From NCBI RefSeq assembly GCF_029223525.1, contig NZ_JARHTQ010000009.1, positions 124,001-188,000 on the forward strand: a DNA stretch of 64,000 nucleotides, written 5' to 3'. Positions within the stretch are counted from its first letter, which is position 1, and each line of letters begins with the position of its first letter. The position numbers and the translations under genes are program-made. The DNA is from Streptantibioticus ferralitis. GTDB lineage: Bacteria > Actinomycetota > Actinomycetes > Streptomycetales > Streptomycetaceae. Under the pieces are notes generated by a model, which saw only the letters and a program-made list of their open reading frames with translations, had not been told where the DNA came from and did not search any database. Positions 44,973 to 59,155 of the stretch are shown piece after piece.

Positions 44973-44988
44973 ACCCGAGCCGCCCAAC

Positions 44989-45007
44989 TGCAACCAAAAC
45001 CGCAACC
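44989..45007. repeat. Paired GCAACC heptamers: probable integrase arm site
   Basis: TGCAACC at 44989-44995 and CGCAACC at 45001-45007, 12 bases apart. They end 63 bases before the tRNA-Ser relic core at 45070. The same motif pair at the same pitch is at 56541-56559. Confidence 0.65.
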
Positions 45008-45018
45008 ACGCAACACGA

Positions 45019-45049
45019 AAGGCCCCGACCGGCAACCGGTCGGGGCCTT
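45019..45049. terminator. Hairpin terminator downstream of the tRNA-Ser relic
   Basis: A 14-bp perfect stem (45019-45032 with 45036-45049) and a three-base loop. Relative to the minus-strand tRNA-Ser relic at 45070-45080 this is the normal position of a tRNA terminator. An equivalent hairpin is present next to the repeat copy at 56390. Confidence 0.8.
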
Positions 45050-45069
45050 CGTTTGCCCAGCTGGGCAGA

Positions 45070-45080
45070 GGCGGAGGATA
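45070..45080 (-). other. tRNA-Ser 3' end relic: truncated attachment site
   Basis: GGCGGAGGATA is the first 11 bases of the 63-bp core found at 47122 and 56390 (on the minus strand, the end of a tRNA-Ser). The match breaks at 45081. Terminator hairpin and heptamer pair lie to its left at the same distances as at 56390, so it is unlikely to be chance. Confidence 0.62.
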
Positions 45081-45093
45081 GAGACCGCGGACG

Positions 45094-45516
45094 TCACTTG
45101 CTTGCGTCCGGCCCGTACCACTGGAGAGGTTGTCCGGTCACAGCGGCGATGCATTCGAAGTCGTGGTCGCGGTGGAGAAGGGTGAGATCTTGGAGCTCGG
45201 CCGTGGCGGCTACCACCAAGTCGACAGCCCCGGCACTGCGATGCTGGCCGCGTTTGGTCAGGGCTTCCTGTACCTGCCACGCTCGGCTGTATGCCCGGTC
45301 GTCTACGGGCACCCACCCGAAGACGAGGCGCAGGTCTTCGATGCCGCGGGCGCGGTCCTCGGGGGAGCGGGCGCTGTAGAAGAACTCGAGTTCAGTGATC
45401 GGGCATGTTGCGATGAGCCCGGCCGACGCGGCCTGATCCCACCCGTACTGCTCCCCGTCGCTGCGCAAGAACCGCGCGAGTGCGCTGGTATCAATGAGGA
45501 ACTGTGCCGCGTTCAC
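45094..45516 (-). CDS. vapC: VapC-type PIN-domain toxin
   Basis: A 140-residue PIN-domain ribonuclease. Acidic site residues are seen in FLIDTSALAR (first Asp), ITELEFFYSAR (Glu) and AVDLVVAATA (later Asp). It begins 4 bases inside the antitoxin gene (ATGA at 45513-45516), the usual coupled order antitoxin then toxin. VapC toxins cleave specific tRNAs or rRNA when freed from VapB. The pair can stabilise the integrated element it lies in. Confidence 0.9.
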   Translation of the reverse strand: MNAAQFLIDTSALARFLRSDGEQYGWDQAASAGLIATCPITELEFFYSARSPEDRARGIEDLRLVFGWVPVDDRAYSRAWQVQEALTKRGQHRSAGAVDLVVAATAELQDLTLLHRDHDFECIAAVTGQPLQWYGPDASK

Positions 45517-45728
45517 CGGCGGTAGTTCCCCTTGTCCTCGAAGAGTTCCAGGTCGAAGGCCCCGTCGGCTGCGGCACTACGCAGCCGCGCCAACGCCAGT
45601 GCCCGCCTCCGGATATCGAGCACCTCCCGCAGGGCGGTGTTGACTGTTTCCTTCTTGGTGCTTGTACCGAGAGCTCGCGCGACTTCGGTCAGCAGTTCGT
45701 CGTCCAAGTCGATCACAGTCCGGCTCAT
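45513..45728 (-). CDS. vapB: VapB-type antitoxin
   Basis: A 71-residue ribbon-helix-helix antitoxin. The N-terminus MSRTVIDLDDELLTEVARAL and TSTKKETVNTALREVL match the VapB/DUF2191 family. The acidic C-terminus (AFDLELFEDKGNYRR) is the usual toxin-binding part. The ATG at 45728 is chosen by family; upstream DNA is AT-rich and includes a probable promoter. It would autoregulate the operon with VapC. Confidence 0.9.
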   Translation of the reverse strand: MSRTVIDLDDELLTEVARALGTSTKKETVNTALREVLDIRRRALALARLRSAAADGAFDLELFEDKGNYRR

Positions 45729-46073
45729 CGCCACCTCCGTATATCGCCGCAGATGTAAAGTATATCTACCATGATGCATCGTGATGCCTGAGTGGTCAAC
45801 CTGCGTGTGGGAGCGCCCAGGCCCGGCTGGAGTGTTGACCTCGTCGCGGAGCTGGCTTGGCGCCCCGGGGAAATCGTTTGTGCCGCGCACGAGCCATCCC
45901 TGTTCGACGGTGAACAGTGGGTGCCTTCGGCGCAGTATGAGGGAGGTGATCGCGCTTCAATCGGCGACTTCGTGCCGTTCACACGTGCTGGCGCACTCGC
46001 ATGTGGACGCGGATAGCCGCCGTCCCTGTCGGAAAGCTGCCTGCTGCCAGACGACCCGACTTGAGGTGAGCCT
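45729..46073. other. Mostly non-coding; one weak short ORF
   Basis: The AT-rich part at 45740-45785 is probably the vapBC promoter. On the plus strand 45792-46016 (GTG start, 74 codons) reads plausibly protein-like (ELAWRPGEIVCAAHEPSLFD) but has no Shine-Dalgarno and no family I know. It may be a gene end left by rearrangement. Confidence 0.35.
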
Positions 46074-46790
46074 GTGTCATTGGTGCTTTCGGCGGACGTG
46101 TTCAAATCGATCGAGTTGCAGGTCTCGCAGCTCTTCCGCAGACAGTTGATCTGTCCGCATCGCCCTGGCCAGTGGTGCTCGGTCAGCGAGCACCTCACGC
46201 TCTCGGAAGCGAAGGAGGTGGCGGCCCGCGAGGCCGCTGACGGCGTTCTACACGCCGCCCTGTGGTGGCGTGTAGGGCGCGACGCCCACAGCGATGCTCC
46301 CAACCTGGCTCGCCGTACCCAGTTGCTTGCCGTGGACTTCGTCGGCCCCTACCTGCGGAAGTCGGCCGCGAAGGTTTCAAGGACGCTCTGCGTCGATGTA
46401 GCGGATGTGAGGTCCGCTATGGTTTTCGGCGCGTTGTACGGGCTGGCTCTGACGGACGACGGTGACGACGTCCGGAACAAGATCATGCGAACCGCACATG
46501 ACGCCGGGTGGGCGGTGGAGCGGGCGAATCCGGTGGAGCGCACGACGGATCCGCACAGCCTTGTCGACCGCAGGGGCGGATGCGACGACTACACACCGGT
46601 GCGTGACGAATCGGACGTCCACGCGGTCGACGAGGTGGACGCTTCGCTGCGGGACAGGATCAGCGGCGAACGCTGGGGCGCGACTTTGCATCGGCTCGGG
46701 ATCCTCGAGGACTTCCTCACCAAGGGGTCGGGGCAGATGCCGGAGAGCGAGTCTGGCCTGTCTCATACGCAGCAGGAGGACGCCGAATGA
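46074..46790 (+). CDS. Unknown protein beside an attachment site
   Basis: A 238-residue protein that I do not recognise. It is soluble and mostly helical in appearance, with two cysteines near the N-terminus (LICPHRPGQWCSVSE). A conserved-looking middle reads VDFVGPYLRKSAAKVSRTLC, and the C-terminal third is polar and acidic. GTG at 46074 has GAGGTGA just upstream. It is coupled to the next gene (ATGA at 46787-46790). Position next to the 47122 att core suggests a replication, regulatory or excision role in a mobile element; that is inference only. Confidence 0.62.
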   Translation: MSLVLSADVFKSIELQVSQLFRRQLICPHRPGQWCSVSEHLTLSEAKEVAAREAADGVLHAALWWRVGRDAHSDAPNLARRTQLLAVDFVGPYLRKSAAKVSRTLCVDVADVRSAMVFGALYGLALTDDGDDVRNKIMRTAHDAGWAVERANPVERTTDPHSLVDRRGGCDDYTPVRDESDVHAVDEVDASLRDRISGERWGATLHRLGILEDFLTKGSGQMPESESGLSHTQQEDAE

Positions 46791-47047
46791 ATGCGAACAG
46801 TGGGCGGGTGTCGCAGTGGTTCTCCATGCCCATGCCGCTAGGGAAGGTGGCTGGCCTCCTCGACATCGACCCGGCGAAAGCACCCGGACTGGTGAGAGCG
46901 GGCCGATTCCCGTGCCGTGTCACGAAGGTCAGGGGCAAGTACGTGGCCACTGTCGGGGACGTGATGGAGGCCATGGGCATCGAAGACCCCGTCGTACAGA
47001 CCGACGACCTACGGGCTGGAGCCGATTTCGCGAAGCGATGGGATTGA
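46787..47047 (+). CDS. Small putative excisionase / HTH protein
   Basis: An 86-residue protein with MPLGKVAGLLDIDPAKAPGL followed by VRAGRFPCRVTKVRGKYVAT, which resembles the helix-turn-helix plus wing of excisionase/MerR-like proteins that read element ends. It ends 75 bases from the tRNA-Ser att core at 47122. It overlaps the preceding gene by four bases. Assignment as Xis rests on size, motif shape and position, not on a firm family match. Confidence 0.55.
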   Translation: MNANSGRVSQWFSMPMPLGKVAGLLDIDPAKAPGLVRAGRFPCRVTKVRGKYVATVGDVMEAMGIEDPVVQTDDLRAGADFAKRWD

Positions 47048-47078
47048 GACCCCTGCCCACCGACGCCTGGGCGCAATG

Positions 47079-47117
47079 CCAGAGGGCCGACCCGCGGAGT
47101 CGGATCGGCCCTCTGGA
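47079..47117. terminator. Hairpin between element gene and att core
   Basis: CCAGAGGGCCGA (47079-47090) pairs perfectly with TCGGCCCTCTGG (47106-47117). It ends the 46074-47047 gene pair, and sits where a tRNA-Ser terminator would be relative to the core at 47122. Confidence 0.78.
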
Positions 47118-47121
47118 CCAG

Positions 47122-47184
47122 GCGGAGGATACGAGATTCGAACTCGTGAGGGGTTGCCCCCAACACGCTTTCCAACTGTTCGTC
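47122..47184 (-). other. Attachment core 1: 3' half of tRNA-Ser(GGA)
   Basis: This 63-base sequence is repeated perfectly at 56390-56452. On the minus strand it encodes the anticodon loop TTGGAAA, the GCGTG half-stem, the long variable arm, the T arm ACGAG-TTCGAAT-CTCGT and the acceptor end ATCCTCC of a type II tRNA-Ser. The 5' half does not follow, since the sequence turns into CTGTTCGT shared by both copies, so this is an integration core and not a tRNA gene. Confidence 0.88.
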
Positions 47185-47271
47185 CGGGGGTTCGGGGAGG
47201 GACACGGGTGTTCTGACCTGGGGTGGAGTTCCTCATGCACGGGACTCTGGACGGGGCTGGACGGGGGCCAA

Positions 47272-47290
47272 TGAGACCAGAACTGAGACC
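47272..47290. repeat. Paired TGAGACC heptamers: probable integrase arm site of element X (left)
   Basis: TGAGACC at 47272-47278 and 47284-47290, 12 bases apart, starting 88 bases to the right of core 1. The identical pair lies at 56309-56327, just inside the other end of the same element. Confidence 0.7.
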
Positions 47291-47357
47291 ATAGGGCCGA
47301 CAGTCTCCCCTGCTCATAGGGGTGATCGGGCTTGACGGCCCGGGGGCTCCAGCGAGG

Positions 47358-47855
47358 CTAGTGCCAACCGCGGAGGGTGACTTCCGGGCCTCCCGTGAGG
47401 TAGCGGTGGAGGGCGCTGCTGGTGCTCGGGACGAATTCCTCGGGAAGGGCGCGGGTGTCGGCCCAGCAGACCCGGGCGTGTTTGCCAGGCTCGCGGTTCT
47501 CAGGCTCGCCGGTCCATGCGTGGGTGGCGAAGACGACGGTGAGGAAGCCGTTGGGGGCTTCGACGCCCCAGGCGCCATGGATGATGTGGGCGACGCGAAG
47601 AGAATCGAGCGTGACGATCAGGCCGGTCTCCTCGCGGAGTTCGCGGACGGCTGTCTCGGTGATGGCCTCACCCGGCTCACTCTTGCCGACGGGCAGGTCC
47701 CACATGCCCGGCGCGAACTTGGCGTCAGGGCCACGCTGCAGGAGTACGACGCGACCTCCGGCCCTGTCGTGGACGATGACAGCTGCGACCAGGAGGGTCA
47801 TCGAGTCGAGGGCGGGCTTGAGGGCGCGGGGTTCACCGGTCTTCTGCTGAGTCAC
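47358..47855 (-). CDS. NUDIX hydrolase (1)
   Basis: A 165-residue NUDIX protein with a complete Nudix box GKSEPGEAITETAVRELREE followed by TGL, so metal binding should be intact. The N-terminal strand is LLVAAVIVHDRAGGRVVLLQ. It hydrolyses some nucleoside diphosphate linked to another group; the substrate is not readable. It is the last gene of a six-gene minus-strand operon in element X, 118 bases after a second NUDIX gene. Confidence 0.9.
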   Translation of the reverse strand: MTQQKTGEPRALKPALDSMTLLVAAVIVHDRAGGRVVLLQRGPDAKFAPGMWDLPVGKSEPGEAITETAVRELREETGLIVTLDSLRVAHIIHGAWGVEAPNGFLTVVFATHAWTGEPENREPGKHARVCWADTRALPEEFVPSTSSALHRYLTGGPEVTLRGWH

Positions 47856-47973
47856 GATGGTTCCTTCGTTCGCCGGGATGTTGGGCGTGCTGGCTCAGGG
47901 CTTCCCCGGAGGCGGGCGGTCGCCCCTCCATGCAGAGGGGGGCATCGGTACAGGGGCGACCTGAGCGTCCGCG

Positions 47974-48546
47974 TTAGCGAACCGCTTGAGCAATACGCAA
48001 CCGCAGGGCCTGGTCATGGATGCTGTCGACATCGCGCCATGCCGCGTCGGCGACCTCTTCGGTCTGCAGCTGGCCGACCTCGGCCGTGGTGCGGAAGAGG
48101 AACCGGAAGTCGATGTGCTGGTGGTCCGGCTCGCCCTTGGCCCCGTTGGCCGGGATGGGGTGGACGTCGACGTGGAGGGGGCTGTCGCTGACGGGGTTGA
48201 CGGTGTCGGCCGGGATGCCGGTCTCCTCGGCAAGCTCACGGCGGGCAGCTTCCTGCAGGGTGGTGTCGTCGGCCTCAAGGTGGCCGCCAGGCAGGAGCCA
48301 CTTGCCGGTGGCGAGGTGGTGGATGTGCAGGATGCGTCCGTCTGGCTGGGCGAGGATCGCGCCTGCGGTCGCGTGGCCGCGGAACTCCTTGCGGGAGGTG
48401 AGGTCGGCTCCGGCATCGATCAGGTCGAGTGCGGGTGCGAGGTCGGGTTTGTCCTCGGGGTGCTGGTCGAGGTAGGCGGTCAGGGTGGTGCGGATGTGGT
48501 CTGCCGTGATGGCCAAGTCGATCACCTGTTGAAGTAGTTGAGCCAA
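47974..48546 (-). CDS. NUDIX hydrolase (2)
   Basis: A 190-residue NUDIX protein. A helical N-terminal 55 residues (LAITADHIRTTLTAYLDQHP) precedes the catalytic domain. The box GGHLEADDTTLQEAARRELA followed by EETGIPA is complete. Its start region overlaps the end of the SAH-hydrolase-like gene by 25 bases, indicating tight coupling. It differs clearly from NUDIX 1, so the two probably act on different substrates or steps. Confidence 0.88.
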   Translation of the reverse strand: MAQLLQQVIDLAITADHIRTTLTAYLDQHPEDKPDLAPALDLIDAGADLTSRKEFRGHATAGAILAQPDGRILHIHHLATGKWLLPGGHLEADDTTLQEAARRELAEETGIPADTVNPVSDSPLHVDVHPIPANGAKGEPDHQHIDFRFLFRTTAEVGQLQTEEVADAAWRDVDSIHDQALRLRIAQAVR

Positions 48547-49643
48547 GTTGCCGCGATGGCGGCGCGGTCGACTGCGGGGACCTCGTGCATGCCGGGGGCG
48601 AGATCCGCGCGGGTGAGCATCCTGATCCCGGCGAGTATCTCGGCTTGGACCAGGAAGATGAACGGCCCGACGCTGGCGCCATGCAGGAAGTTGACGGCGT
48701 TTCCACCGTTGGCCAGGTAGAAGTAGTGGCCCGTGGTCTGGTACCGGGTGACGTGCTCGCCGACCATGGTGCGGGTATAGACGTCCGGGAGTCCGGCGAG
48801 TTCCAGTTCGTCCTCGCTGGAGGTGACGGTGGCGACGTAGGCGCCGTTGCGCAGGTGCGGGAAGTCCTCGCCGTGTAGGGAGACCGCGCCGGTCGCGCAG
48901 AGCACCAGCCCCGCTTCCGTTAGCGCGGCCTCGCGGTCTCGGGCGACGGTGAAGCCCTGGGAGAGGGCCTGGGTGCGGCGTACGGGGTCGATGTCAAAGA
49001 CGTTGACCTGGACGCCTTTGACTTGCAGCAGTCGGGCGATGGAGGAGCCGAGTTTGCCGAAACCGATCACCAAAGCGGGGCGGCCGTGGAGAATGTCGCC
49101 GCGCTCGCGCATGACGGCCTCGGTGGAGAAGACCACAGATTGGCCGACGAGGAAGTCTTCAGGATCCTTCAGGGGTGAGCGGGCGACGGAGATCACCGGG
49201 CAGGGCAGCTTGTCGAGATCGGCATAGCGGCGGTGACCGTTCTCGGTGTCCTCGATCACGCCTAGGACGTGGCCGGAGAAGCGGTCATGCAGGTCCGTGA
49301 GAGTGGGGGCGAAGTAGCCGCCGACGTCCAGCAGAACGATAGGCTCGGCGGTCGCCCTGGACTCGACGTAGTCCAGCGCGGCTTCGGGGTCGATGAACAG
49401 CTCACGGGAGAGCGCGTCGACCGGGGTGGTCTTCTCGACCTCGCGCCGGGCGGCGGGATTGATCGACTTGGGTTTGGGCAGCACCGCCCGCAGCCGGGTG
49501 AGGGAGGCGACCGCGCGAACGAAGGCAGGCCGCTCCGGCAGCAGGTGTGTGACCAGGAAGGATGTCGCCTGCTCGTCGGGGGTGAACTGGGCGGTGATCT
49601 TGGCGAAGTAGGCGTCCAGCCGGGCGCGTTCGAAGGATTCCAT
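48522..49643 (-). CDS. S-adenosylhomocysteine hydrolase-like NAD-binding protein
   Basis: A 373-residue protein with an SAH-hydrolase-like dinucleotide domain: VIGFGKLGSSIARLLQVKGV, then NVFDIDPVRRTQAL and LVLCATGAVSLHG, resembling the NAD fold and its following strand. It is shorter than real AdoHcy hydrolases (about 430-490 residues), and I cannot find their full substrate signature. The C-terminal HYFYLANGGNAVNFLHG segment resembles the end of the family. It may hydrolyse or oxidise a modified nucleoside. The start is ATG at 49643 with GAGGGAACTGCC upstream. Both flanking genes are in the same operon. Confidence 0.8.
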   Translation of the reverse strand: MESFERARLDAYFAKITAQFTPDEQATSFLVTHLLPERPAFVRAVASLTRLRAVLPKPKSINPAARREVEKTTPVDALSRELFIDPEAALDYVESRATAEPIVLLDVGGYFAPTLTDLHDRFSGHVLGVIEDTENGHRRYADLDKLPCPVISVARSPLKDPEDFLVGQSVVFSTEAVMRERGDILHGRPALVIGFGKLGSSIARLLQVKGVQVNVFDIDPVRRTQALSQGFTVARDREAALTEAGLVLCATGAVSLHGEDFPHLRNGAYVATVTSSEDELELAGLPDVYTRTMVGEHVTRYQTTGHYFYLANGGNAVNFLHGASVGPFIFLVQAEILAGIRMLTRADLAPGMHEVPAVDRAAIAATWLNYFNR

Positions 49644-49694
49644 GGCAGTTCCCTCTCATCCGTCTGTGCGGATTCGTGCATGGAAGGGCTGGCT

Positions 49695-50171
49695 TCAAGT
49701 GGTGCGGGCGAGGCCGAACAGCAACCGGTCAGCGGTGAGTTCGGTGTCCAGGTAGGTATCAACGCGGGTGGCGTCGGCGGACTGCGGCAGCGCGTCCAGG
49801 CCGACCATCACGATGGCCTCGCAGGATCGGGTGAGCAGTGCGGTCCAGCGGGGGTGGGTGGGCAGCCGTAGTCCGTAGCGGCTGCCGTGGAAGCGCATCA
49901 GCACCTGGTCGCCGATGATCTGCAACCGTCCCGGCAGGACGGGCAAAGGGTCTCGGGCGTCGGCCAGGCCGCCAAGGGAGACTGCGATCAGTCGCATCCG
50001 GGCCTCGATCGCCTCGGGGGTGTCGTGGCTGGTGCGGTCGGGTGGGTGGGTGAGCAGGACGTGCCCGACATGTTGACCGTCTGGCGCCATTCCGGGCCAG
50101 GTCCAGGCTCCGAGGGAGGCCAGCAGCCCCGGTCTCGGCCCGATGAGCGGCTGCGGGATGCGGGTCAGCAT
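49695..50171 (-). CDS. Unknown protein of the element X operon
   Basis: A 158-residue protein without a family I can name. It is probably cytosolic. Recognisable stretches are MLTRIPQPLIGPRPGLLASL, HVGHVLLTHPPDRTSHDT and LPGRLQIIGDQVLMRFHGSR. The ATG at 50171 overlaps the stop of the ATPase-fold gene upstream by seven bases, which selects this start over longer ones. The position between a regulator and an SAH-hydrolase-like gene is the only hint of role. Confidence 0.68.
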   Translation of the reverse strand: MLTRIPQPLIGPRPGLLASLGAWTWPGMAPDGQHVGHVLLTHPPDRTSHDTPEAIEARMRLIAVSLGGLADARDPLPVLPGRLQIIGDQVLMRFHGSRYGLRLPTHPRWTALLTRSCEAIVMVGLDALPQSADATRVDTYLDTELTADRLLFGLARTT

Positions 50172-50584
50172 GCTGCCTCCCGGACGGCGGCGACGGCCTT
50201 GAACCGCAACCAGACGATCTTCCCGGAGGGCTGCCGGTCGCAGACGCCCCACTCATCCGCGAGTTCCTCGACGATCAACAGCCCTCGTCCAGAGGCGTCC
50301 GACGGTTTCGAATGGCGGACCTGTGGCCGGTGGCCGTCATGGCGGCTGTCGTGTACTTCCAGGAGTACGAAGTCGTTGTCTTCGACGGTCAGTCTGACCA
50401 GGAAGCCGATTCCGGGCTCGGTGCCGTGAACGAGCGCGTTGGTGGCCAGCTCGGAGACACACAGCCGGATGTCGTCGGCGTCCATGTCCAGTCCCCAGGC
50501 CATCAGGGTTGCGGTGGTGAACTCCCTGGCCCGGCTCACGGATTCGAGCTTCGGCTCGAAGTACTTCTGCATCACCTCGGGCAT
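50165..50584 (-). CDS. HATPase-fold (RsbW-like) regulatory protein (1)
   Basis: A 139-residue GHKL ATPase-fold protein like the anti-sigma kinases of Streptomyces. The N box is RLCVSELATNALVHGTE, G1 is VLLEVHDSR, and G2 is SGRGLLIVEELADEWGV. The start is ATG at 50584 (MPEVMQKYFEPKL). It has the same length and the same motifs as the protein at 61535-61954 in element Y. It probably controls a sigma factor or regulator of the operon; a partner is not evident. Confidence 0.86.
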   Translation of the reverse strand: MPEVMQKYFEPKLESVSRAREFTTATLMAWGLDMDADDIRLCVSELATNALVHGTEPGIGFLVRLTVEDNDFVLLEVHDSRHDGHRPQVRHSKPSDASGRGLLIVEELADEWGVCDRQPSGKIVWLRFKAVAAVREAAC

Positions 50585-50592
50585 GGCGGGCC

Positions 50593-51021
50593 TCACGTCT
50601 CCGCGTCCAGGGCCCGGCTGCGGCGGCGAGGCCGGGCCGCACTGGACGAGTTGGAGATGCGGTGGCCGGCCGATCGGGGCCTGCGGCTGTCGCGGATCAG
50701 CAGCAGCCGAGCCCCGGCCGCCTCGATCCGTTTCTCCCGGTCGGCGGCTATCGCCTTGGGGCCGAGGTGGGAGGCGGACGGCAGCACGACGCCATAGGCG
50801 TCGGGTAGCGACAAGACGTCCAGCAGTCCGGTGAACGCTGCGGAGACGACGTCGGTGGAGCGTTCGGTGAACACCCCGGACAGCAGCAGTTCGTGCTGGC
50901 GGCAGTACTCGGCCAGCGAAGCGGCCAGTGCCTCCTGTCGGGTGGCCGGGGCCCGCGCCAGCCGCAGGAAACCGTAGACGGCCGGGCCGTTGACCGGGCG
51001 ATGCTCCGTGAGGGGTTCCAT
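50593..51021 (-). CDS. Resolvase-fold-like protein lacking the catalytic serine
   Basis: A 142-residue protein. AVYGFLRLARAPATRQEALA, CRQHELLLSGVFTERSTDVV and DAYGVVLPSASHLGPKAIAA follow the pattern of serine-recombinase N-terminal domains. The position of the nucleophilic Ser (as in RVS) holds Ala in FLRLARA, so recombinase activity is not expected. No DNA-binding domain follows; the C-terminus is Arg/Ser-rich. It is the first gene of the minus-strand operon and lies 8 bases before the ATPase-fold gene. Such proteins occur near regulators in Streptomyces; the role is unknown. Confidence 0.62.
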   Translation of the reverse strand: MEPLTEHRPVNGPAVYGFLRLARAPATRQEALAASLAEYCRQHELLLSGVFTERSTDVVSAAFTGLLDVLSLPDAYGVVLPSASHLGPKAIAADREKRIEAAGARLLLIRDSRRPRSAGHRISNSSSAARPRRRSRALDAET

Positions 51022-51176
51022 GCTGTAGACCGTCCAAAGGCTTGAGGCGGTGGTCACAGTCCGAGGGTGTCCGAGACCCAACGTCCATGGAATGAACCGC
51101 TGTTGCACTTCCGTGGCACTTCCATCCCCCCGGTTGAGTTCCCGTGCTTCGATGGCGGCTCAGAAGGGAGCGACGC

Positions 51177-52271
51177 GTGGCGACCGTGCACCACTGGACC
51201 GGCCTGGAGGCCCGAGCGCTGCGTCTGGCCTTGCGGATGAGCGTCCGCGCTTTCGCCGAACACCTCGGCGTCGGCGTCCGCACCGTCTCCAAGTGGGAGA
51301 AGCTCCTCACCGCCACCGAGCCCCGTCCCGACACCCAGGCCATCTTGGACACCGCGCTGGCCCGCGCGGATGCCGCCGTTCATCTGCGGTTCGAGACGAA
51401 CCTGTCCGAGGCCGGACGCCCGTCGTCTGGCCGCCGAGTGACGGCTACCGGGCCAAGGGCCTGGGAGTACGAATCGTGGACCGACGACCTGGAACGCGGC
51501 GTCGTCGCCTTGTCCCGGCAGAACTTCGCCTTCGCCAACAACCTGCTGAACCGCTGGCTGGGGCGCTTCAAGCCGCTGCGGTTGGATGACAAGGGCCTAT
51601 ATCTGCTCGCACGCTCGACCGCCCTGCTCGGTGACCTGCGGCGCGACCAGGGCGCCGTCCTCGGGCCGCTGTCGGCCCAGCACTCTTATGCCGGTGCCCG
51701 CTCGATCTTCACCCAGCTCGACATCCCCCGCCGCGTCGCCCAGCTCGACCTGTCTCTGGCGGTGGTCGCCGAGATGTCTGACAAGTTGGAGATAGCCGCA
51801 CGCCACTACGAAGCCCTCGCGGTCGATGACCGCCTGGCCCGCCGTGACCGGGCTCGGGCCAGGTTGTGGGTGGGAACCGCCTTGAGCAAGGACGGCAACC
51901 ACGACTATGCCGCCCGCGTCATGCTCGCCGCGACTCGCGAGTTCGAGGACCTGTCCGAGCCCGACGACTGGTCAGTCGCCCACCAGAAACTCGCCCTGGC
52001 CCACCGCGGAGCGGGCCAGTTAGACCAGGCCCTGCACTTCATCGATATCGCCCGCAGCACCGGCGTAATGGACTCGCCAATGCAGCGGGTGCGCTTGGAC
52101 ACTGCCCATGGTCACATCCTGCTGTCCGACCCGGCCACCCGGGATGATGGGCTGCGGGTGCTCGATGACGCCGGGAAGCTGGCCGCCAAGGTCGGCCTGA
52201 GCCACCAGCTCCGCAGCATCGAGAGCATCCGGAGGATAACCGAGGGGGCATCCGGCCCCCGGCGACGGTGA
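51177..52271 (+). CDS. XRE-family regulator with TPR domain (element X)
   Basis: A 364-residue regulator. The N-terminal helix-turn-helix (residues 8-60: LALRMSVRAFAEHLGVGVRT, VSKWEK) is followed by helical TPR-like repeats to the C-terminus. It is divergent from the six-gene operon and upstream of YdcF and WbqC genes, so it likely controls both arms. GTG at 51177 has GAAGGGAG seven bases upstream. The last 95 bases are duplicated at 41873 in the wrecked element to the left. The signal it senses is unknown. Confidence 0.88.
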   Translation: MATVHHWTGLEARALRLALRMSVRAFAEHLGVGVRTVSKWEKLLTATEPRPDTQAILDTALARADAAVHLRFETNLSEAGRPSSGRRVTATGPRAWEYESWTDDLERGVVALSRQNFAFANNLLNRWLGRFKPLRLDDKGLYLLARSTALLGDLRRDQGAVLGPLSAQHSYAGARSIFTQLDIPRRVAQLDLSLAVVAEMSDKLEIAARHYEALAVDDRLARRDRARARLWVGTALSKDGNHDYAARVMLAATREFEDLSEPDDWSVAHQKLALAHRGAGQLDQALHFIDIARSTGVMDSPMQRVRLDTAHGHILLSDPATRDDGLRVLDDAGKLAAKVGLSHQLRSIESIRRITEGASGPRRR

Positions 52272-52439
52272 CCAGGGAGATGCAGCGTGACGGACAACCA
52301 GCGGGCCTTGACCGAGGTTCAACGGCAGCAGGCCAAGCTGATCTGGGACTACCACCAGATGCACCACCAAGTCCGGCCGGTGGATGCCGCGATCGGCCTG
52401 GGCAGCCACGACCTGGGGGTGCCCGTCTACTGTGCCCAG
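52175..52439 (+). repeat. 265-bp repeat, copy B (partner 41873-42137)
   Basis: The intact version of the repeated segment. It spans the end of the XRE-TPR gene and the first 50 codons of the ydcF-like gene; about 94% identical by eye to the other copy. Confidence 0.9.
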
Positions 52440-52955
52440 TTGTACCGCGCCGGGCTCTTCCCCACCCTGGTGTTCACCGGGGGTCCCAACCCCACCGCCC
52501 CCGAGCGATTCCCGCGCGGCGAGGCCGTTCACTTCCGCGAGCACGCCATGGAACTCGGCGTCCCCGACAAGGCGATCCTCGTGGAGCCGAAGGCCCGCAA
52601 CACCGGCCAGAACATCACGTTCTCCCGCGAAGTCCTGACCGCCGCCGGTATCACCGTGAAGACCGTGCTGCTGGTGTCCATGCCGTATATGGAGCGACGC
52701 TCCTTCGCTACCGCCCGCAAGCTCTGGCCCGAGGTCAAGGTGATCTGTGCCTCGGAGCCACTGGAGTTCGACGACTACCTCAAGAGCATCGGCGACGAGA
52801 AGCTCGTCACCGACCAGCTCGTCGGCGACCTGCAGAGGGTGATCGAGTACCCCAAGCTCGGGTTCGCCATCGAGCAGGACGTCCCGGAGGACGTGCATGC
52901 CGCCTACGAATCCCTTATCCGCGACGGATTCACCAGCCGCCTCATCAACTCCTGA
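52287..52955 (+). CDS. YdcF/DUF218-family protein
   Basis: A 222-residue protein of the YdcF/SanA-like (DUF218) family. It is soluble because no transmembrane anchor is present. The domain begins AAIGLGSHDLGVPVYCAQLY, continues TLVFTGGPNPTAPERFPRGE, and has EPKARNTGQNITFSREVL, the conserved Asn/Glu-rich motif, then VLLVSMPYMERRSFATARK. E. coli YdcF binds SAM; a reaction is not established. GTG at 52287 has GGGAG eight bases upstream. It follows the XRE-TPR gene by 15 bases and is probably co-transcribed with it. Confidence 0.88.
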   Translation: MTDNQRALTEVQRQQAKLIWDYHQMHHQVRPVDAAIGLGSHDLGVPVYCAQLYRAGLFPTLVFTGGPNPTAPERFPRGEAVHFREHAMELGVPDKAILVEPKARNTGQNITFSREVLTAAGITVKTVLLVSMPYMERRSFATARKLWPEVKVICASEPLEFDDYLKSIGDEKLVTDQLVGDLQRVIEYPKLGFAIEQDVPEDVHAAYESLIRDGFTSRLINS

Positions 52956-52965
52956 CCTGCCGCGC

Positions 52966-53763
52966 GTGAGTGGGCTGTGCGCGATCCACCAGCCCAACTT
53001 GTTCCCGCGACTGACCACGCTGGCCAAGCTGTTCGCGGCGGACTACTGGATCGTCCTCGACGACGTGCAGTTCTCCCGCCGCGACTACCAGCACCGCATT
53101 CGCCTGACGGCCTCGAACGATCCGCAGTGGCGCCAGTGGCTCACCATCCCCACCCACTTGCCCCGAGGCCGTGCCACGGCCATACACGAGGCTCTGATCG
53201 TGGACCCGATCCGTTCGCGGCGACGTGTGGCCCAGATGCTGCGGTACTACTACCGCGCAAGCCGACACTGGGCGATTCTGAGCCGGGCACTTGAACCGTT
53301 CCTCGACTTGTTCACCACGACGGACAAGACCGCTGACATCTCAGAGGCGTCCACCCGGATTCTTCTGGAACTGCTCGGCTGGCATGGGCGGATTCTCCGC
53401 AGCAGTCAGCTCTCCGCCCGGTCGGGGCGGTCGCAGCGGCTCGCCGATCTGGCAGTAGCCACTGGCGCCTGCGGCTACCTCTGCGGGACGGGCGGCATGA
53501 GGTACCTGGAGGCGAACGTGTTCACGGCTCTCGGCATCGCGGTGATCCCGTTTCGCACCCCCACCACGGGCCTGTGGCATGCCGGACGCGAAATCAGCGC
53601 CATCCGGTCCTTGATGACCTGCGGCGTACGGGTCCTTGCCGATGAGCTACGGGACGTCGTCGCGAACCAAGAGGTCACGCAGCCGCTACGCGAAACAGCC
53701 TTGAGAGACCGCCTACCTAGTGGCAGACGGCCTCTCGGAACGAGCGCTTTCAGCGGCTATTAG
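52966..53763 (+). CDS. WbqC-like family protein
   Basis: A 265-residue protein of the WbqC family. The hallmark N-terminus is CAIHQPNLFPRLTTLAKLFA followed by DYWIVLDDVQFSRRDYQHR. GACGYLCGTGGMRYLE and GIAVIPFRTP are also visible. WbqC-like proteins occur in O-antigen and sugar clusters and are thought to act on nucleotide or aminoacyl substrates; the function is not settled. The start is GTG at 52966, 10 bases after the YdcF stop. The last 14 bases overlap the convergent relaxase relic. Confidence 0.85.
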   Translation: MSGLCAIHQPNLFPRLTTLAKLFAADYWIVLDDVQFSRRDYQHRIRLTASNDPQWRQWLTIPTHLPRGRATAIHEALIVDPIRSRRRVAQMLRYYYRASRHWAILSRALEPFLDLFTTTDKTADISEASTRILLELLGWHGRILRSSQLSARSGRSQRLADLAVATGACGYLCGTGGMRYLEANVFTALGIAVIPFRTPTTGLWHAGREISAIRSLMTCGVRVLADELRDVVANQEVTQPLRETALRDRLPSGRRPLGTSAFSGY

Positions 53764-55160
53764 TTCGCCTGGCGACCTCAACGTGCGGAGGCAGCTCGGT
53801 CATCGCGGTGGAGGAGGGGCGGTACGCAGTTCCTCCAAGGCTCCTGCTCCGTGCCGTGGCCGCCGATGCCCGCTTGTTGGGCATGGCGCTGATACGCCAG
53901 TTCAGCACTTCCGCGAGCGAGTGCGCGGTGTCCAGTTCGCGCTGTTCTGCCGCCTCGGCGAGGACTTCGCCAACGCGGTGTCCACTGCTCTCGGCCCTGG
54001 CCAGCGTGGTCGTCAAGGCAGGCCAGGCGGGATCGGCAAGGATGCGGTCGGCCTGCTCGGGCACCGCCCGGCGTAGGTCTGCCTCGAACCGTCGAGCCAC
54101 CTCGGCCCGCGGAGCGCGCTGTGCGAGGTCAGCGAGAACCGGCGCGGCGGCCTGGCGATAGCCGCTACTCAAGTGTTCGGCGGCACGTCGGGCTGCGGCT
54201 GCCTGCTGCTGGTGGCCTCGCTTCTCGTGCCAGCGTGCGGCGGCGATGGCCAGGAGGACGGCGCTCGACAGCAGCGCGATGAATGCCGCTCCGTCCTGCC
54301 CCGGTCCGATGGCGGTGCACAGTTCCCTGGCGGCACCGCGCAAGGCGGCGGCTTGCTGGTGGTCGGCGCGGATGGCGGAACGATTGGCGCGGTTGAACGC
54401 TGCTGCTGCCGCTCGTAGTTCAGCCCTGTTGCCGGGGGGACCGGTCTTGGCGGTGTTGTGAAGGAGTTCCGCGAAGGCGGCGAGTTGGGCCTGGGCTGCC
54501 GCGTCGTCGCCGCTGTCGAGAACGGCGGATGCCTGCCGCAGTGCGGTCTCGGCTTGGTGCCATGGGCTGACCGGGCGTATGCCTGCGGCCGGAACGTCGT
54601 CGCTCTTCTGCGCGTCGAGGCGTTCGCGGATGCGGTGGATGGACAGGTCGGAGGCGAGCTTGGAACCGCCAAGCCAGATCGACTCTCCCTGCGCATTGGT
54701 GTCGCCGGGGGCTGCGAGGCTGTAGCCGATGACGTCGCCGGTCTCCGGGTCGATGCGCTTTTTGGCCTGGATGCCAAGGGAGTCGAGGACGGAGAAGAAC
54801 TCCTCCTCGGTTCGTACGACGGCCAGGACCGCGTATGCCTCGTCGCGCAGCCACTCGCGCGAGGTGACGCTCTTGCCTCGGCGCTGGGCCTTGGCCTGCT
54901 CTGCGCTGGTCAGGGTCTTCGGTGCGGTCAGGTCGCCGGACTTCGATCGCCGCAGGCCGAACTCCTCTTCGATCTTCCGGCACTCCTTCTGCGCCCGCCA
55001 TCCATCCCGGTTCGTGCGGGGGCGGCGCCCGTCGGCGCGGACGGTGGTCGCAACGATGTGGATGTGGTCGTCCGCGTGCCGCACGGCGATCCATCGGCAC
55101 GCCTGGTCGTCCCCGTCAGGGGCAATGCCCGTGGCGGCAACGACGCGGCGAGCGAGCCTC
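53750..55160 (-). pseudogene. Relaxase/mobilisation nuclease, N-terminus lost
   Basis: From about 55158 the minus strand encodes a relaxase: RRVVAATGIAPDGDDQACRW, IAVRHADDHIHIVATTVRAD (histidine metal motif HADDHIH), then CRKIEEEFGLRR and an Ala-rich helical C-terminal region to 53750. The N-terminal part with the catalytic tyrosine is missing. The open frame continues into unrelated DNA and has an ATG at 55297, but that segment reads as the reverse of another gene's end. The protein cannot nick DNA. It shows that element X was once mobilisable. Confidence 0.78.
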
Positions 55161-55262
55161 TTCCTGGTCACCTGGCTGTTCGCCCTCCTGTACTGGCGCA
55201 TCGCCCGCATCGAGGAGAAGTGGTCCGCGAACATGCGCCCCACCAACGCCTCTGGCGACTGA
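55158..55262 (+). pseudogene. C-terminal fragment of a membrane protein
   Basis: The plus strand from about 55158 reads LFLVTWLFALLYWRIARIEE followed by KWSANMRPTNASGD and a stop. A hydrophobic helix with a charged tail is typical of a membrane protein end. It abuts the relaxase break point exactly, so a rearrangement joined the two. The parent family is not recognised. Confidence 0.45.
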
Positions 55263-55344
55263 CCCGGATCCGGCCCTGTCCAGCGCGACGCCGACACGCG
55301 CTGGGCAGGGCCTTCGTCATTTGCGCGTCACCGCACTCCCTCTT

Positions 55345-55378
55345 ATTGCAAACTAATTGCAGATAAGGAGATATTGCA
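55345..55378. promoter_or_regulatory. ATTGCA repeats: MarR-like operator candidate
   Basis: ATTGCA occurs three times (55345-55350, 55356-55361, 55373-55378), and TGCAA/TTGCA form an inverted repeat with a five-base spacer at 55347-55361. Sites of this TTGCAA-type are typical of MarR-family operators in actinobacteria. The AAGGAG Shine-Dalgarno of the next ORF lies within this block, so binding would directly block its expression. Confidence 0.55.
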
Positions 55379-55379
55379 T

Positions 55380-55541
55380 GTGAGTCGTGAACGAAGGGAA
55401 GCCGGTATGGCGATTTCACCCGTGGCGGTGGGGAGCGATCCGCCCCGCGATGGGGCTGGCGCGGGAAGCATGCGAGTCGGCGTCCTGCCCATGCACGCGG
55501 TTCCCCTTACGCCGATCGCCGAGACAGCCAGGGCCGCGTAA
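55380..55541 (+). CDS. Small 53-residue protein upstream of an acetyltransferase gene
   Basis: A short ORF from GTG 55380 to TAA 55541. It has AAGGAG nine bases upstream and overlaps the next start (TAATG). The protein begins VSRERREAGMAISPVAVGSD and ends VGVLPMHAVPLTPIAETARA followed by A. It has no signal peptide, no cysteines and no known domain. The start signal and coupling support real translation. It could be a leader, a regulator or a modified peptide; nothing decides between these. Confidence 0.6.
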   Translation: MSRERREAGMAISPVAVGSDPPRDGAGAGSMRVGVLPMHAVPLTPIAETARAA

Positions 55542-56112
55542 TGTCCGCGCGGATACGACTGGCTACCGGAGCCGAGACCGTGACCATGGCGCCCGCGCTG
55601 CGGCTGGTCTACCGGCAGGCGTTCTCGGCACCACCTGGCAAGAGGACCCCGCCGGGGATGCCCTGTTCGCCGGACGGCTGAACCATGACGTTCGTCGGCC
55701 CGGTTTCACTGCGGCGGTCGCCCTGGAACACGACCGGCTGGTGGGCTTCGCCACCGCATGGACCACCACGGCCCCGCTGCCCGCCGAGCGCTGCTACCCG
55801 CAGGTGTCCGCCGCGCTAGGTCCCGAACGCGTGACGTCCTGGCTACACGGCGCCCGAGAAGTCGATGAACTCGCCGTCCTACCCACACTGCACGGCCGGG
55901 GCATCGGCCCTGCGCTACTCGACGCGGTGACTCACGACGCGCCCGACGGCCGGTGCTGGCTGCTGACCTCTGTCCGCGCCACGCGCGTACTGGAGCTGTA
56001 CCAGCGCCTTGGCTGGACACAGGCCACCCACCCCGCCCCCGCCGGAAGAGGCATCGCAGTCTTCCTCGGCCCAGCCCACCCCAACCGCGACACCGCGCCC
56101 CAACCCCTCTAA
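55541..56112 (+). pseudogene. GNAT acetyltransferase with a one-base frameshift
   Basis: The N-terminal part (MSARIRLATGAETVTMAPAL and LRLVYRQAFSAP) is read from ATG 55541. Near 55631-55636 the frame must shift by one base to continue as WQEDPAGDALFAGRLNHDVR. The acetyl-CoA-binding part VDELAVLPTLHGRGIGPALL of the GNAT fold is in this second frame, which ends at 56112. One missing C in ACCACCTGG would explain the break. It may be a pseudogene or a sequencing error. It is coupled to the small ORF before it. Confidence 0.78.
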
Positions 56113-56308
56113 GTAGCGGTCCGATGGGTCGTGAACCCTGCGCTCCACTTGCGCGATGAGGGCCAGCCATTGACCCGTCGCACGAGCCTCGAACCTGCCG
56201 TCGGCGCCTACGGTGGGCGCGCCGTGACGGACGGCACAGCTCAACGAGCGCGGCACGGAGCATCAGTTCGCCCGTCTTCGGACCGCTGGGCAGCGGCTCA
56301 CGGCCAAC

Positions 56309-56327
56309 TGAGACCAAAACTGAGACC
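56309..56327. repeat. Paired TGAGACC heptamers: probable integrase arm site of element X (right)
   Basis: TGAGACC at 56309-56315 and 56321-56327, 12 bases apart, ending 63 bases before core 2. Same motif and pitch as at 47272-47290. Confidence 0.7.
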
Positions 56328-56337
56328 AGACAACGTC

Positions 56338-56370
56338 GAAGCCCCTGACCGGATCCCGGTCAGGGGCTTC
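56338..56370. terminator. Hairpin terminator at the end of element X
   Basis: A 15-bp perfect stem (56338-56352 with 56356-56370) closes a three-base loop. It stands where the tRNA-Ser terminator would be relative to the core at 56390, and also ends the acetyltransferase transcript. Confidence 0.85.
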
Positions 56371-56389
56371 GTTTCCGCTGCTCAGCGGT

Positions 56390-56452
56390 GGCGGAGGATA
56401 CGAGATTCGAACTCGTGAGGGGTTGCCCCCAACACGCTTTCCAACTGTTCGT
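56390..56452 (-). other. Attachment core 2: 3' half of tRNA-Ser(GGA)
   Basis: Perfect 63-base match to 47122-47184. Beyond it the two copies continue with only loose similarity (GCGG.TGTTCGG against CCGG.GGTTCGG). The 5' half of the tRNA is not next to this copy either, so the intact gene is probably further to the right, outside the window. Confidence 0.88.
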
Positions 56453-56540
56453 GCGGCTGTTCGGCGGGGTCCGTCAGCGTACTGACCTGCGGCTGAGTGG
56501 GCTCAGCAGGGCGCGCCGAACGGGCCGGAACGACGCTGAA

Positions 56541-56559
56541 TGCAACCCGAACTGCAACC
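56541..56559. repeat. Paired GCAACC heptamers: probable integrase arm site of element Y (left)
   Basis: TGCAACC at 56541-56547 and 56553-56559, 12 bases apart, starting 89 bases right of core 2. Same motif and pitch as at 44989-45007, while the distance matches the TGAGACC pair at core 1. Confidence 0.68.
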
Positions 56560-56682
56560 CTCCGGGCACCCGCTTGTCTCGAACGCTGTTGAGGTCATGG
56601 GAAACAGTCAATCAACCCCTACAAGTCGATGGGGTCCTGGCAGTGAGTGGGCGGAGTCAACCGATGTGGGTGCCCCATGGGT

Positions 56683-57304
56683 TCAGCTTGGAAACGATCG
56701 ACCGTGGTTTCCGGGGGCGTATCGGCTCCATGTCCCGCCGGTCTCGTTGAGGAGGCGGGCGGGGGTCTTGTCGTGGTGACCGAGTGCGTCCGCGACGACG
56801 GGGGCGGGCAGTTCGAGGAGTTGCTGTCGGATGGCGGCGCCGCGGGCGGCGGCCGGGACGCCGACCTCGCCCAAGAGTGCGGACAGGTGATCGGGGCGAG
56901 CGGTTGGCCCGCCCGGTGACCAGGGAAGAGCCAGCGGGATGCTGGTTGGTGGCGGTGTTCATGTTGTCGCGGTTCGCGATGTGTTCCAGCAGCAGAGCAG
57001 CGACTGGTGCGGGGACGGGCGATGCTGGCTCGCCGAGTCGTAGCAGCACTGTGTAGCCGTCGTGGATCACGTCGTCGACGGTGAGCCGGACGATCCGGGT
57101 CAAAGGCTGCGCGTAAAGGAGCACGGTGACCCCGGCGACATAGAGGCGCATCGATATCTCCATATCGGTCAGCAGCCGACCGAGGGTGTCCAGGCGCTCG
57201 TCCTCGCTCAGTGCGGCTCTCCGGGAGGTCTTCATCGTAGGGATGGAGAGGTTCCGTCGGCAGTGGCGGCTCTGCATGGCCCACCTCATGGACACCGTCG
57301 ACAA
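56683..57304 (-). pseudogene. Tyrosine recombinase-like gene, frameshifted
   Basis: On the minus strand one frame gives ERLDTLGRLLTDMEISMRLY, VAGVTVLLYAQPLTRIVRLT and VDDVIHDGYTVLLRLGEPAS; a second frame continues ASRWLFPGHRAGQPLAP; a third gives RQQLLELPAPVVADALGHHD and GGTWSRYAPGNH, whose Tyr is in the nucleophile position. Together they make a streptomycete site-specific recombinase-like C-terminal half split by at least two frameshifts. The N-terminal half is missing. It lies next to attachment core 2 and is a plausible old integrase of element Y. Confidence 0.68.
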
Positions 57305-57313
57305 GAGATACCT

Positions 57314-59155
57314 CTACATCTGCCTGGCCAACCAGTGCCAGATCGTGTGGTCCCCGACATCCGTTATGGCCAGGGTTACCGCCGTCAAGAGAAGTGTCGC
57401 GCCTGCCACCCACAAAGCCAGGCGGCTCACGCGGAATGCGTCCACCGACGCCCCCAGCGCGGAGACCGCGGTGAGAACCTCCCGGTAGTCCCGGTCAGCG
57501 TCCGACAAATCGGAGGCCATCCTCGTCTGCGCTTCGGCGAGCACCTTGTTGTAGTCCAGCGGCTCCTGCTTCGTTTGAACCCACGGTGCGTTCCCCATGG
57601 TGAACATGGCCTCGTCCGGCCACAGTCCATACTCATTGGTGCTCTTGACGTCCCGAGCGAGAGCGTTGATGTCCAGGCTAAACGTGATCAGGCCCTCCTG
57701 GAGCTCCTTTGCATACTTTCCCTTGAGCTGCCTGTGCTGGCGCCTAGCACTGTCCCGTAGCTTGGCGTAGGAGCGTTCAAGTTCGCCAAGGAACTCCGTG
57801 AGGGCGATCTTGACGAAGAAGCTGCGAATGACATCACTGACGTAGCTGGAGACCGCCCAGGGCTTGTCGCTGCCACGATGACGGACCATCGACTCGGGAA
57901 TGTCCGCAAGGGAGCCGACAAGCCCCCAGCTGGGCGCTTCTCCCATGGACCGGCAAAGATCCGGCTCCGTCCTTTGCAGCACGAACCCGGGCAGGGAGTC
58001 GCTGGTCAGCCAGATGAACTCCTGGGTGAGGCCCAGCGCTCGCAGACTGGCAGACCATTCGCCGCTGGGCGGTTGGTCATCCTGCGGGTGGTAGGTCTGA
58101 AACAGGAGCAAGTCGAAGGCGGAATGGCGTCGGTCCTTCGAGGCGAAGCTGCCGGGCAACTTCTCGGCCATCCAGTCGCGTGCGGCATCATGGAGTGCTC
58201 GTCTAGTTTCTTGGGTTCGACGCATCGTCACCCAAGCGCTGTCCTCGGCCAGTGGCCTCATGCCGCGCCTCTTCACCAGTTCGGGGCCATGCTGGGTCCT
58301 CCAGACCTGGTCGAGGTGGTCCGATGCCTCGTCGGATACGAAGAACTCGGCGACGACGGCCGTTGTCCCGGACCCGATCTGATGGCCGTACAGGCAGACG
58401 GCTTCAAAGGAGGGATGGAGACTTCCCTCCCCGAAATCCGGAAAGAAAAAACTGGACTTGATCTGCTTCAAGCCTCCGATGCGCCACCACGACCGGCCCA
58501 CGTGGCTGCGTGACCGATCGAGCCGTTTCCTGTTCTCCTGGTCGCGTTCCGCCCGGTCCCAAGAGTTCCGTTCCAAGTAGCGGCGCAGGTTCTCATGCTC
58601 ACTCGGGGGAAAGAACTCGACTACCCATAGGCGCGGTACGTTAATGCGCTCGCCGTCAGAGACCTCTATGGTGTTCCATGGGCGCCGTCGGCCTGTCAGA
58701 TGGCGTCGGTGCTCCTGGTAGGGCAGTAGGTAGTTGATCCCCTTGACGACAGTCTGCTGACCACGCCGGGGAAGCCTCTGCCAGACGGAAGGATGCCGGG
58801 GAAGCCAATCAAGGGTGCTGTACAGGCGGTCGAACCACTCTTTGCCGACGCCGTCGCCGTCGCCGTCGCCGTCCGCGGAGAGTATCGCGGGCTCGGAGGC
58901 TCCTGTCTTGGGCGTCTCGAGAAGCTGCGGAGCTGTATCCGGGGTGGGTTCCTCCGCGCATGGCTCCTCGCTCGGCGCAGACGTCATTTCATCATCAGGC
59001 TGCTCATTGCGGTCCAAGGTGGCCCTCCGTCCACGCTGTGAAGCCCAACCTAGTACTACAGTCGGTGGTCTCACTTTGATCGAGCGCAGACTGCGCAGGG
59101 ACGTGGCCACCCGACGCGCAGGCTCCACGTACATCGGGTCGGGCTCGAAGGACAT
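57314..59155 (-). CDS. Unknown 613-residue protein with C-terminal membrane helix
   Basis: A large protein that I do not recognise. Residues 1-110 are polar and probably disordered, with an Asp/Gly repeat (DGDGDGDGVG). The central 350 residues are a soluble domain with WLPRHPSVWQRLPRRGQQTV, INYLLPYQEHRRHL and HQIGSGTTAVVAEFFVSDEA. A charged helical, coiled-coil-like segment (about 440-570, LGELERSYAKLRDSARRQHR) leads to one or two transmembrane stretches at the end (LALWVAGATLLLTAVTLAIT). Base composition is visibly less GC-rich than its neighbours, indicating transfer. Large unknown proteins with membrane tails in integration hotspots are often anti-phage or competition factors; that is a guess. 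The start is uncertain. Confidence 0.75.
   Translation of the reverse strand: MSFEPDPMYVEPARRVATSLRSLRSIKVRPPTVVLGWASQRGRRATLDRNEQPDDEMTSAPSEEPCAEEPTPDTAPQLLETPKTGASEPAILSADGDGDGDGVGKEWFDRLYSTLDWLPRHPSVWQRLPRRGQQTVVKGINYLLPYQEHRRHLTGRRRPWNTIEVSDGERINVPRLWVVEFFPPSEHENLRRYLERNSWDRAERDQENRKRLDRSRSHVGRSWWRIGGLKQIKSSFFFPDFGEGSLHPSFEAVCLYGHQIGSGTTAVVAEFFVSDEASDHLDQVWRTQHGPELVKRRGMRPLAEDSAWVTMRRTQETRRALHDAARDWMAEKLPGSFASKDRRHSAFDLLLFQTYHPQDDQPPSGEWSASLRALGLTQEFIWLTSDSLPGFVLQRTEPDLCRSMGEAPSWGLVGSLADIPESMVRHRGSDKPWAVSSYVSDVIRSFFVKIALTEFLGELERSYAKLRDSARRQHRQLKGKYAKELQEGLITFSLDINALARDVKSTNEYGLWPDEAMFTMGNAPWVQTKQEPLDYNKVLAEAQTRMASDLSDADRDYREVLTAVSALGASVDAFRVSRLALWVAGATLLLTAVTLAITDVGDHTIWHWLARQM

Follow-up and report, generated by a model that had tools for sequence, protein, structure and literature searches.

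Copies of the 3' half of a tRNA-Ser(GGA) gene, flanked by paired short units, lie in a 64-kb stretch of the 8.8-Mb genome of Streptantibioticus ferralitis (C110:124001-188000, referred to here as the window). The locus raises the question which integrases these units serve and what makes one class of units differ from another. Arm-binding domains determine which attachment sites an integrase assembles on. To our knowledge, few enzymes have been studied to the point where the basis of this base preference is clear.

We read the region as a stack of integrative elements built up by accretion at tRNA-Ser(GGA), in which the paired units would be the sites of the integrase arm-binding domain and their class would be set by a few residues; we put the probability of this reading at roughly 85%. 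Whether bases 4-5 of the unit read CA or AG probably depends on position 25 of the integrase, and the last two bases on positions 21 and 42. Such a compact residue-to-base code, repeatedly switched and used at several tRNA targets, could match arm sites and co-resident elements to integrases from sequence alone. What is new is the covariation. The array itself adds a further case to a known type, and both tandem accretion and arm sites are known already.

Cores and arm pairs in the window

From left to right the stack consists of the relic element C, the remnant unit D, element B, element A and the intact tRNA. A preliminary description of this DNA had reported a 63-bp perfect repeat, an 11-bp relic of it and two types of heptamer pairs at 12-bp pitch. 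The repeat is real (47121-47183 and 56390-56452); its right copy starts where described, its left copy one base before the 47122 given. The relic is present at 45070-45080, and the pairs stand at the pitch reported, those of GCAACC type at 44990-45007 and 56542-56559 and those of TGAGACC type at 47272-47290 and 56309-56327. Within the 64 kb each type of pair has two occurrences and no more; of 100 dinucleotide shuffles, not one contained two or more. The corresponding cores and arm units are:

44988-45008, plus strand: arm pair CTGCAACCA/CCGCAACCA of element C at 12-bp pitch, of the class that fits its relic integrase
47121-47183, plus strand: att core, the tRNA-Ser(GGA) 3' half up to the anticodon loop, plus 8 bp
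47271-47291, plus strand: left-end arm pair ATGAGACCA/CTGAGACCA of element B, at +149 from the core
56308-56328, plus strand: right-end arm pair CTGAGACCA/CTGAGACCA of element B
56390-56452, plus strand: att core where elements B and A meet
56540-56560, plus strand: left-end arm pair ATGCAACCC/CTGCAACCC of element A

Not two arm classes, as described earlier, but three are represented in the window, CTGCAACCA, CTGAGACCA and CTGCAACCC. Because the pair at 44990 (CTGCAACCA/CCGCAACCA) and the pair at 56542 (ATGCAACCC/CTGCAACCC) differ in their unit letters, GCAACC falls into two sub-classes. By the residue-to-arm rule set out below, these two sets belong to different integrases.

The central proposal of the preliminary description, P and P' arm sites of related integrases around tRNA-Ser att cores, is supported and survived both tests that it had named. 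The heptamer pairs recur next to tRNA-Ser cores in many other genomes, and to the right of the window an intact tRNA-Ser and an integrase are present in the predicted order. Likewise, the repeated distances between pair and core recur in relatives at near-fixed spacing. There the usual start of the left unit is -81 to -86 relative to the core (-68 to -73 in some cases, -96 in one) and that of the right unit +146 to +151, with GAGACG right arms at +170; where another element continues rightward in the loci fetched with the element A integrase, right pairs stand at about +149. The unit forms in relatives are CTGCAACCC, CTGCAACCA, CTGCAACTA, CTGAGACCA, CTGAGACGG and (A/T)TGAGACT(A/G). On this pattern the arm pairs are predicted to be bound by integrases.

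Covariation of integrase residues with the arm class

For the discovery set, 80 loci were fetched with the element A integrase, which together with the window's genome gave 81 integrases; 63 were scored. The others had no core in reach downstream (14), no left pair (L123 and L128), a frameshifted N-terminus (L133) or a missing one (L141). The second set comprised 80 regions hand-picked from integrase matches, mainly full-length and of about 55-72% identity. Here 27 were scored, 32 had no downstream tRNA-Ser(GGA) core, and two, L156 and L170, gave no pair with the pattern used, though L170 has one with a changed base. The remaining 19, including L198, L187 and L196, are integrases with a WHAR motif instead of WHG(Y/R); they have GGACAA pairs at the same 12-bp pitch. 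This class is excluded from the 90-locus counts, which are the sum of 63 and 27.

Residue 25 is Tyr in 22 of 22 discovery loci with CA and Arg in 41 of 41 with AG, and no other of the roughly 411 columns accounts fully for the choice between CA and AG. The second set, intended at the outset to test residue 25 independently, gave Arg25 with AG in 27 of 27 scorable loci. Altogether 90 of 90 scored loci are concordant (Tyr with GCAAC, Arg with GAGAC). Ten fresh Tyr25 integrases came from the arrays described below and the relic in the window; nine of them have a clear pair, GCAAC in 9/9, and one is unclear.

The last two bases of the unit follow residues 21 and 42, less completely than CA/AG follows residue 25. 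Glu42 and G at base 8 agree in 90 of 90 loci, and Tyr or Phe at residue 21 goes with T in 89 of 90. The base-8 rule holds in eight of the nine fresh Tyr25 cases with a clear pair.

Could a few integrase lineages simply happen to differ in arm sequence, so that the covariation reflects shared ancestry only? The small number of strongly supported contrasts speaks for this: such branches of the tree offer 3 independent contrasts, each of them concordant (p 0.25 in a sign test), compared with 8 when all branches of the best tree are counted. That tree was built from residues 70-412, leaving out the N-terminal domain. On it residue 25 and the arm change 8 times each, Tyr25 and Arg25 forms being intermixed in one clade, and Glu42 and base-8 G change 3 times each without disagreement. 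Residue 25 fits also in relatives of 49% and 37% identity. We consider ancestry alone extremely improbable.

Other tRNA targets and distant relatives

Of the second-set regions, 32 had no tRNA-Ser(GGA) core; in 23 of these a matching pair lies near tRNA-Ser(CGA) or tRNA-Cys(GCA), in every case GAGAC together with Arg25. At these loci Glu42 is accompanied by GG in 16 of 16, and the 7 without Glu42 all lack GG. The circular pCM32 of Saccharopolyspora endophytica (NZ_KM260754.1) holds arm pair, hairpin, core and arm pair contiguously, an attP of the same plan, and the Arg25 of its integrase fits GAGAC in 4/4 units. Two features of a lambda-type attP were thus seen: the repeats flank the core left and right at a set spacing, and in the relative pCM32 they are contiguous in a circular form. 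In the window's own genome, an integrase 37% identical to that of element A has Tyr25, with a TGCAAC pair close after its last aligned codon. The covariation is strong and seen at several tRNA targets; as a regularity among sequences, it suggests a simple DNA-recognition code.

Further away, the Arthrobacter phage locus L298 (36% identity, Glu at position 25) has TAGRCCACC repeats at 12-bp pitch flanking a core on both sides; these were seen by eye and missed by the exact-match scan. No clear pair was found at L299 (44% identity, Arg25). A phage origin was considered and rejected: 50,697 phage records held no close relative (best 44% identity), and viral contigs gave 7 loci with best segments all below 35%.

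Arrays in other genomes

Cores were searched in 25 genomes, seven of which hold 8 to 15 copies. From 21 of them 24 arrays were read, plus the window's own, giving 102 units between successive cores. For 20 units the family integrase allowed a prediction. It fits the right-end arm in 18 of them; one unit has no such arm (G347:9724), and in another the arm is unclear (G099:33922). In most full elements the two ends match. Two integrases were read before the first core; G288a:7722 is concordant with its arm, the other being G081:3167, discussed below.

Many short units contain no family integrase and have a right pair, no clear pair being seen at the left. Two arrays, G101 and G099 (L228-L233), contain 9 and 15 copies of the tRNA-Ser core; many of their units, 1.6-5.2 kb long, lack a family integrase, which makes them somewhat similar to cassette arrays. 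Another unit, about 3.14 kb long and coding for proteins of roughly 124 and 294 residues, recurs in the arrays G126 (three copies), G099, G058 and G008 (L230-L241). Its right arms are of GAGACC type, a left pair was called in the G008 copy only, and the G058 copies had no NCBIfam match. The small array units were clustered by protein only.

Arm classes might have diversified as compatibility groups, if neighbours at one tRNA must differ in class. By hand count, none of 7 directly adjacent element pairs with readable integrase N-termini shares a class; seven pairs are too small a sample, and one of them (G081) has equal key residues in both integrases. Counted over 31 readable junctions, 4 are of the same class where 5.4 are expected (P = 0.35), and with coarser classes 4 are observed against 6.6 expected (P = 0.16). 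Neighbour avoidance is not supported by these counts, and we regard it as unlikely.

Predicted mode of arm recognition

The close relative L068 carries Phage_int_SAM_3 and Phage_integrase domains. Its structure was modelled from 37 sequences, with numbering one below the reference. The model has an N-terminal three-stranded sheet (strands 11-15, 21-29 and 35-42) and a helix (45-61), with block pLDDT values of 74-89 there, and its best matches in the Protein Data Bank include full-length lambda integrase. With the two profile domains, this gives the arm-binding, core-binding and catalytic parts expected of a lambda-type integrase. Residue 25 (L068 24) lies in the middle strand, residue 21 (20) just before it, and residue 42 (41) ends the third strand.

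On the proposed mechanism each element would carry an attP made up of left arm pair, hairpin, the tRNA 3' half as core and right arm pair. Crossover near the anticodon loop would restore the tRNA, so that the newest element adjoins it and older core copies shift outward. Most likely the N-terminal arm-binding domain of the integrase binds the 9-bp units, which are paired at a pitch of 12 bp. Residue 25 would choose the middle bases, Tyr going with GCAAC and Arg with GAGAC. Residues 21 and 42 appear tied to the next two bases: Lys42 to CC, Glu42 to GG, Ser, Gly, Thr or Asn42 with Arg21 to CA, and Tyr21 to T followed by A or G. Physical binding, direct contact between residue and base, and present mobility of the elements are what we infer from these patterns.

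The pairs might instead be sites of an excisionase or another element-encoded factor, residue 25 being linked to them by co-inheritance only. An excisionase-like HTH_17 gene just upstream of the element A integrase would indeed travel with it. Against this, residue 25 alone of about 411 columns fits fully, and it sits in the N-terminal sheet; passages of PMC8138268 and PMC4880445 describe this domain type as an arm-site binder, and the pairs stand on both sides of the core, as in the attP sites described in part of PMC3203893. We judge such a factor very improbable.

Recognition by the integrase N-terminus has several observations against it besides the few strongly supported contrasts. All 27 second-set loci have Arg25 and three repeat discovery proteins, so that this set offers no Tyr/Arg contrast. 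The 23 loci at other tRNAs are likewise Arg25 only and test residue 42, not that contrast, and the other 9 of those 32 have no pair near a tRNA. No left pair was found at L123, L128 and L156, L156 being the same protein as L123. In the arrays, the left end is of another class in 5 of the 20 units with a predictable integrase (15 agree), and the partial integrase G099:46762 has an unclear right-end arm. The rules for residues 21 and 42 are broken at L216, at G081:3167 (K/Y/K, with GCAACT and not GCAACC) and in pCM32, whose Tyr21 fits T in 1/4 units, 3/4 having G. The L068 model is modest (mean pLDDT 67.5, pTM 0.45).

Relation to known systems

In a lambda-type attP, with its P and P' arms, the core is likewise flanked by arm sites bound by the N-terminal domain; here binding is predicted. 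Unlike there, the units form direct pairs (12-bp pitch) on each side, and across the family a series of arm classes is tied to named residues. Similar too are the attP sites of cluster K mycobacteriophages (Pope et al. 2011, PMC3203893). As at our loci, putative arm sites come in pairs to the left and right of the core, a stem-loop separates core from arm, and arm-site variants accompany particular integrase residues, there 17 and 19. That link rests on four phages and a suggestion, whereas here there are 90 loci, several tRNA targets, repeated switches on the tree and checks at further loci. The actinomycete integrative and conjugative elements (AICEs) of Streptomyces, as part of PMC9513070 presents them, also stack with their remnants at one tRNA between identical direct repeats; that part names no arm sites. 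Element A differs from them in its MobA-type relaxase, and among its scanned genes no TraB turned up. In pCM32, integrase, TGAGAC pair, hairpin, tRNA-Ser-like core and TGAGAC pair follow in one stretch of the circular record, as here; its integrase is 48.7% identical, and its arm-unit end bases depart from the residue-21 rule.

Neither these tRNA-Ser pairs nor such a residue code were described in the titles and abstract openings of the open-access literature searched. If the code is true, some ninety natural integrase/arm-site pairs with switches among close relatives make the question of base preference directly testable. Orphan arm sites and integrase-less elements in tRNA islands would then be assignable to the enzyme type able to move them.

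Elements C and D

45019-45049, plus strand: G+C-rich hairpin between the element C arm pair and the relic core, from sequence; relatives share the plan
42129-42491, plus strand: relic integrase of element C, N-terminal part (tblastn, 80% identity, residues 2-122 of reference P0001)
42478-42582, plus strand: C-terminal scrap of the relic integrase in another frame (tblastn, residues 371-406)
45070-45086, plus strand: 11-bp relic core (45070-45080) joined to GAGACC (45081-45086), likely the last arm unit of unit D
45081-47120: unit D, a remnant with a PIN-domain gene and nucleotide relatives in three other arrays
47080-47115, plus strand: hairpin left of the core at 47121, with a lone TGAGACC (from 47046) at the expected place of the left pair

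A wider match over the relic integrase of element C contains one internal stop. Its key residues are Arg21, Tyr25 and Ser42, a combination that accompanies CTGCAACCA in scored loci, and the pair at 44988-45008 reads CTGCAACCA/CCGCAACCA. Under the residue-to-arm rule, the broken integrase correctly predicts its own arm. Between 43146 and 44867 element C has aquaporin-type, ArsR-like (by eye only) and glyoxalase-type genes, perhaps an arsenic-related set.

The relic core abuts a GAGACC that aligns with the last arm unit of related units elsewhere, which points to a deletion of about 150 bp; it probably removed most of the relic core and the first arm unit. Nucleotide relatives of unit D sit just right of a core in three arrays. 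Right arms are of GAGACC type in two of these and GCAACC in one, so cargo and arm class are not mutually fixed. The PIN-domain gene (45094-45516) has protein relatives of 84-87% identity in arrays of three other genomes (L267, L237 and L232).

Element B

47184-56389: element B, 9,269 bp core to core
53750-55297, minus strand: relaxase remnant, 56% identical to the element A relaxase over 436 columns
56339-56369, plus strand: hairpin between the right arm pair and the core, from sequence

Including both cores, element B spans 47121-56452 and has TGAGACC pairs at each end. Its genes encode two NUDIX proteins, an AdoHcyase-like and a weakly RsbA-like protein, and HTH, DUF218, WbqC and GNAT proteins. 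No integrase was found by Pfam and PHROGs scans of the main genes or when the family integrase was searched against the translated window. A counterpart of the first 107 residues of the element A relaxase is missing. With no integrase found and the relaxase truncated, element B does not qualify as an integrative and mobilizable element. It is most likely a decayed element whose arms are intact and whose integrase and relaxase start are lost.

Alternatively, element B might be functional though non-autonomous, with a TGAGACC-type integrase mobilising it in trans. Arm pairs and cores are intact at both ends, and units without family integrase are common in the arrays of relatives, many with a right pair only. 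Against this stand the relaxase without its start and the fact that no Arg25 relative turned up in this genome. There, all 43 of 43 candidates were scored, and the 3 matches at E 1e-20 or better (the element A integrase, the relic in the window and the third integrase, 37% identical to that of element A) all have Tyr25. Mobilisation in trans is conceivable, if rather doubtful.

Element A and the intact tRNA

56453-64000: element A, in-window part, continuing to window-equivalent 83609

Measured core to core, element A is 27,165 bp long; it begins at the 56390 core, ends at the tRNA and has a GCAACC pair at each end. The intact tRNA-Ser(GGA) is found 19.6 kb past the window (C110:207554-207641, minus strand), and to its left are a third core copy of 55 bp and a GCAACC pair without mismatch. 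With two full cores inside the window and the intact gene at one end, the locus forms a tandem accretion array. Contig C13 holds a further core with a decayed pair.

The genes of element A include those of a MobA-type relaxase (PF03432), a DUF3631 protein and, directly upstream of the tyrosine integrase, the excisionase-like HTH_17 protein. Relaxase, HTH_17 and integrase genes all lie past the right edge of the window, as do the Lamassu-like genes and the right arm pair. The integrase has Lys21, Tyr25 and Lys42, which go with CTGCAACCC, present at both element A ends. By sequence, element A has what an integrative and mobilizable element should have: integrase, relaxase, matching arms and cores. 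Among its scanned genes, only a part of the total, neither of the AICE hallmarks, an FtsK-like TraB and a replication initiator, was found. Since element A adjoins the tRNA, insertion geometry makes it the youngest. The preliminary description, which placed a TGAGACC element inserted among GCAACC elements, is corrected on this order and by the lack of a detected integrase in the TGAGACC element.

Near the tRNA end of element A there are matches to LmuB, LmuC and LmuA of the Lamassu defence system (L006:16095-19712, window-equivalent 79595-83212), that to LmuA spanning part of the profile only. Elsewhere in the window, positions 25504-26006 gave an Rfam match of 157 bits to Sernc350, a Saccharopolyspora sRNA family.

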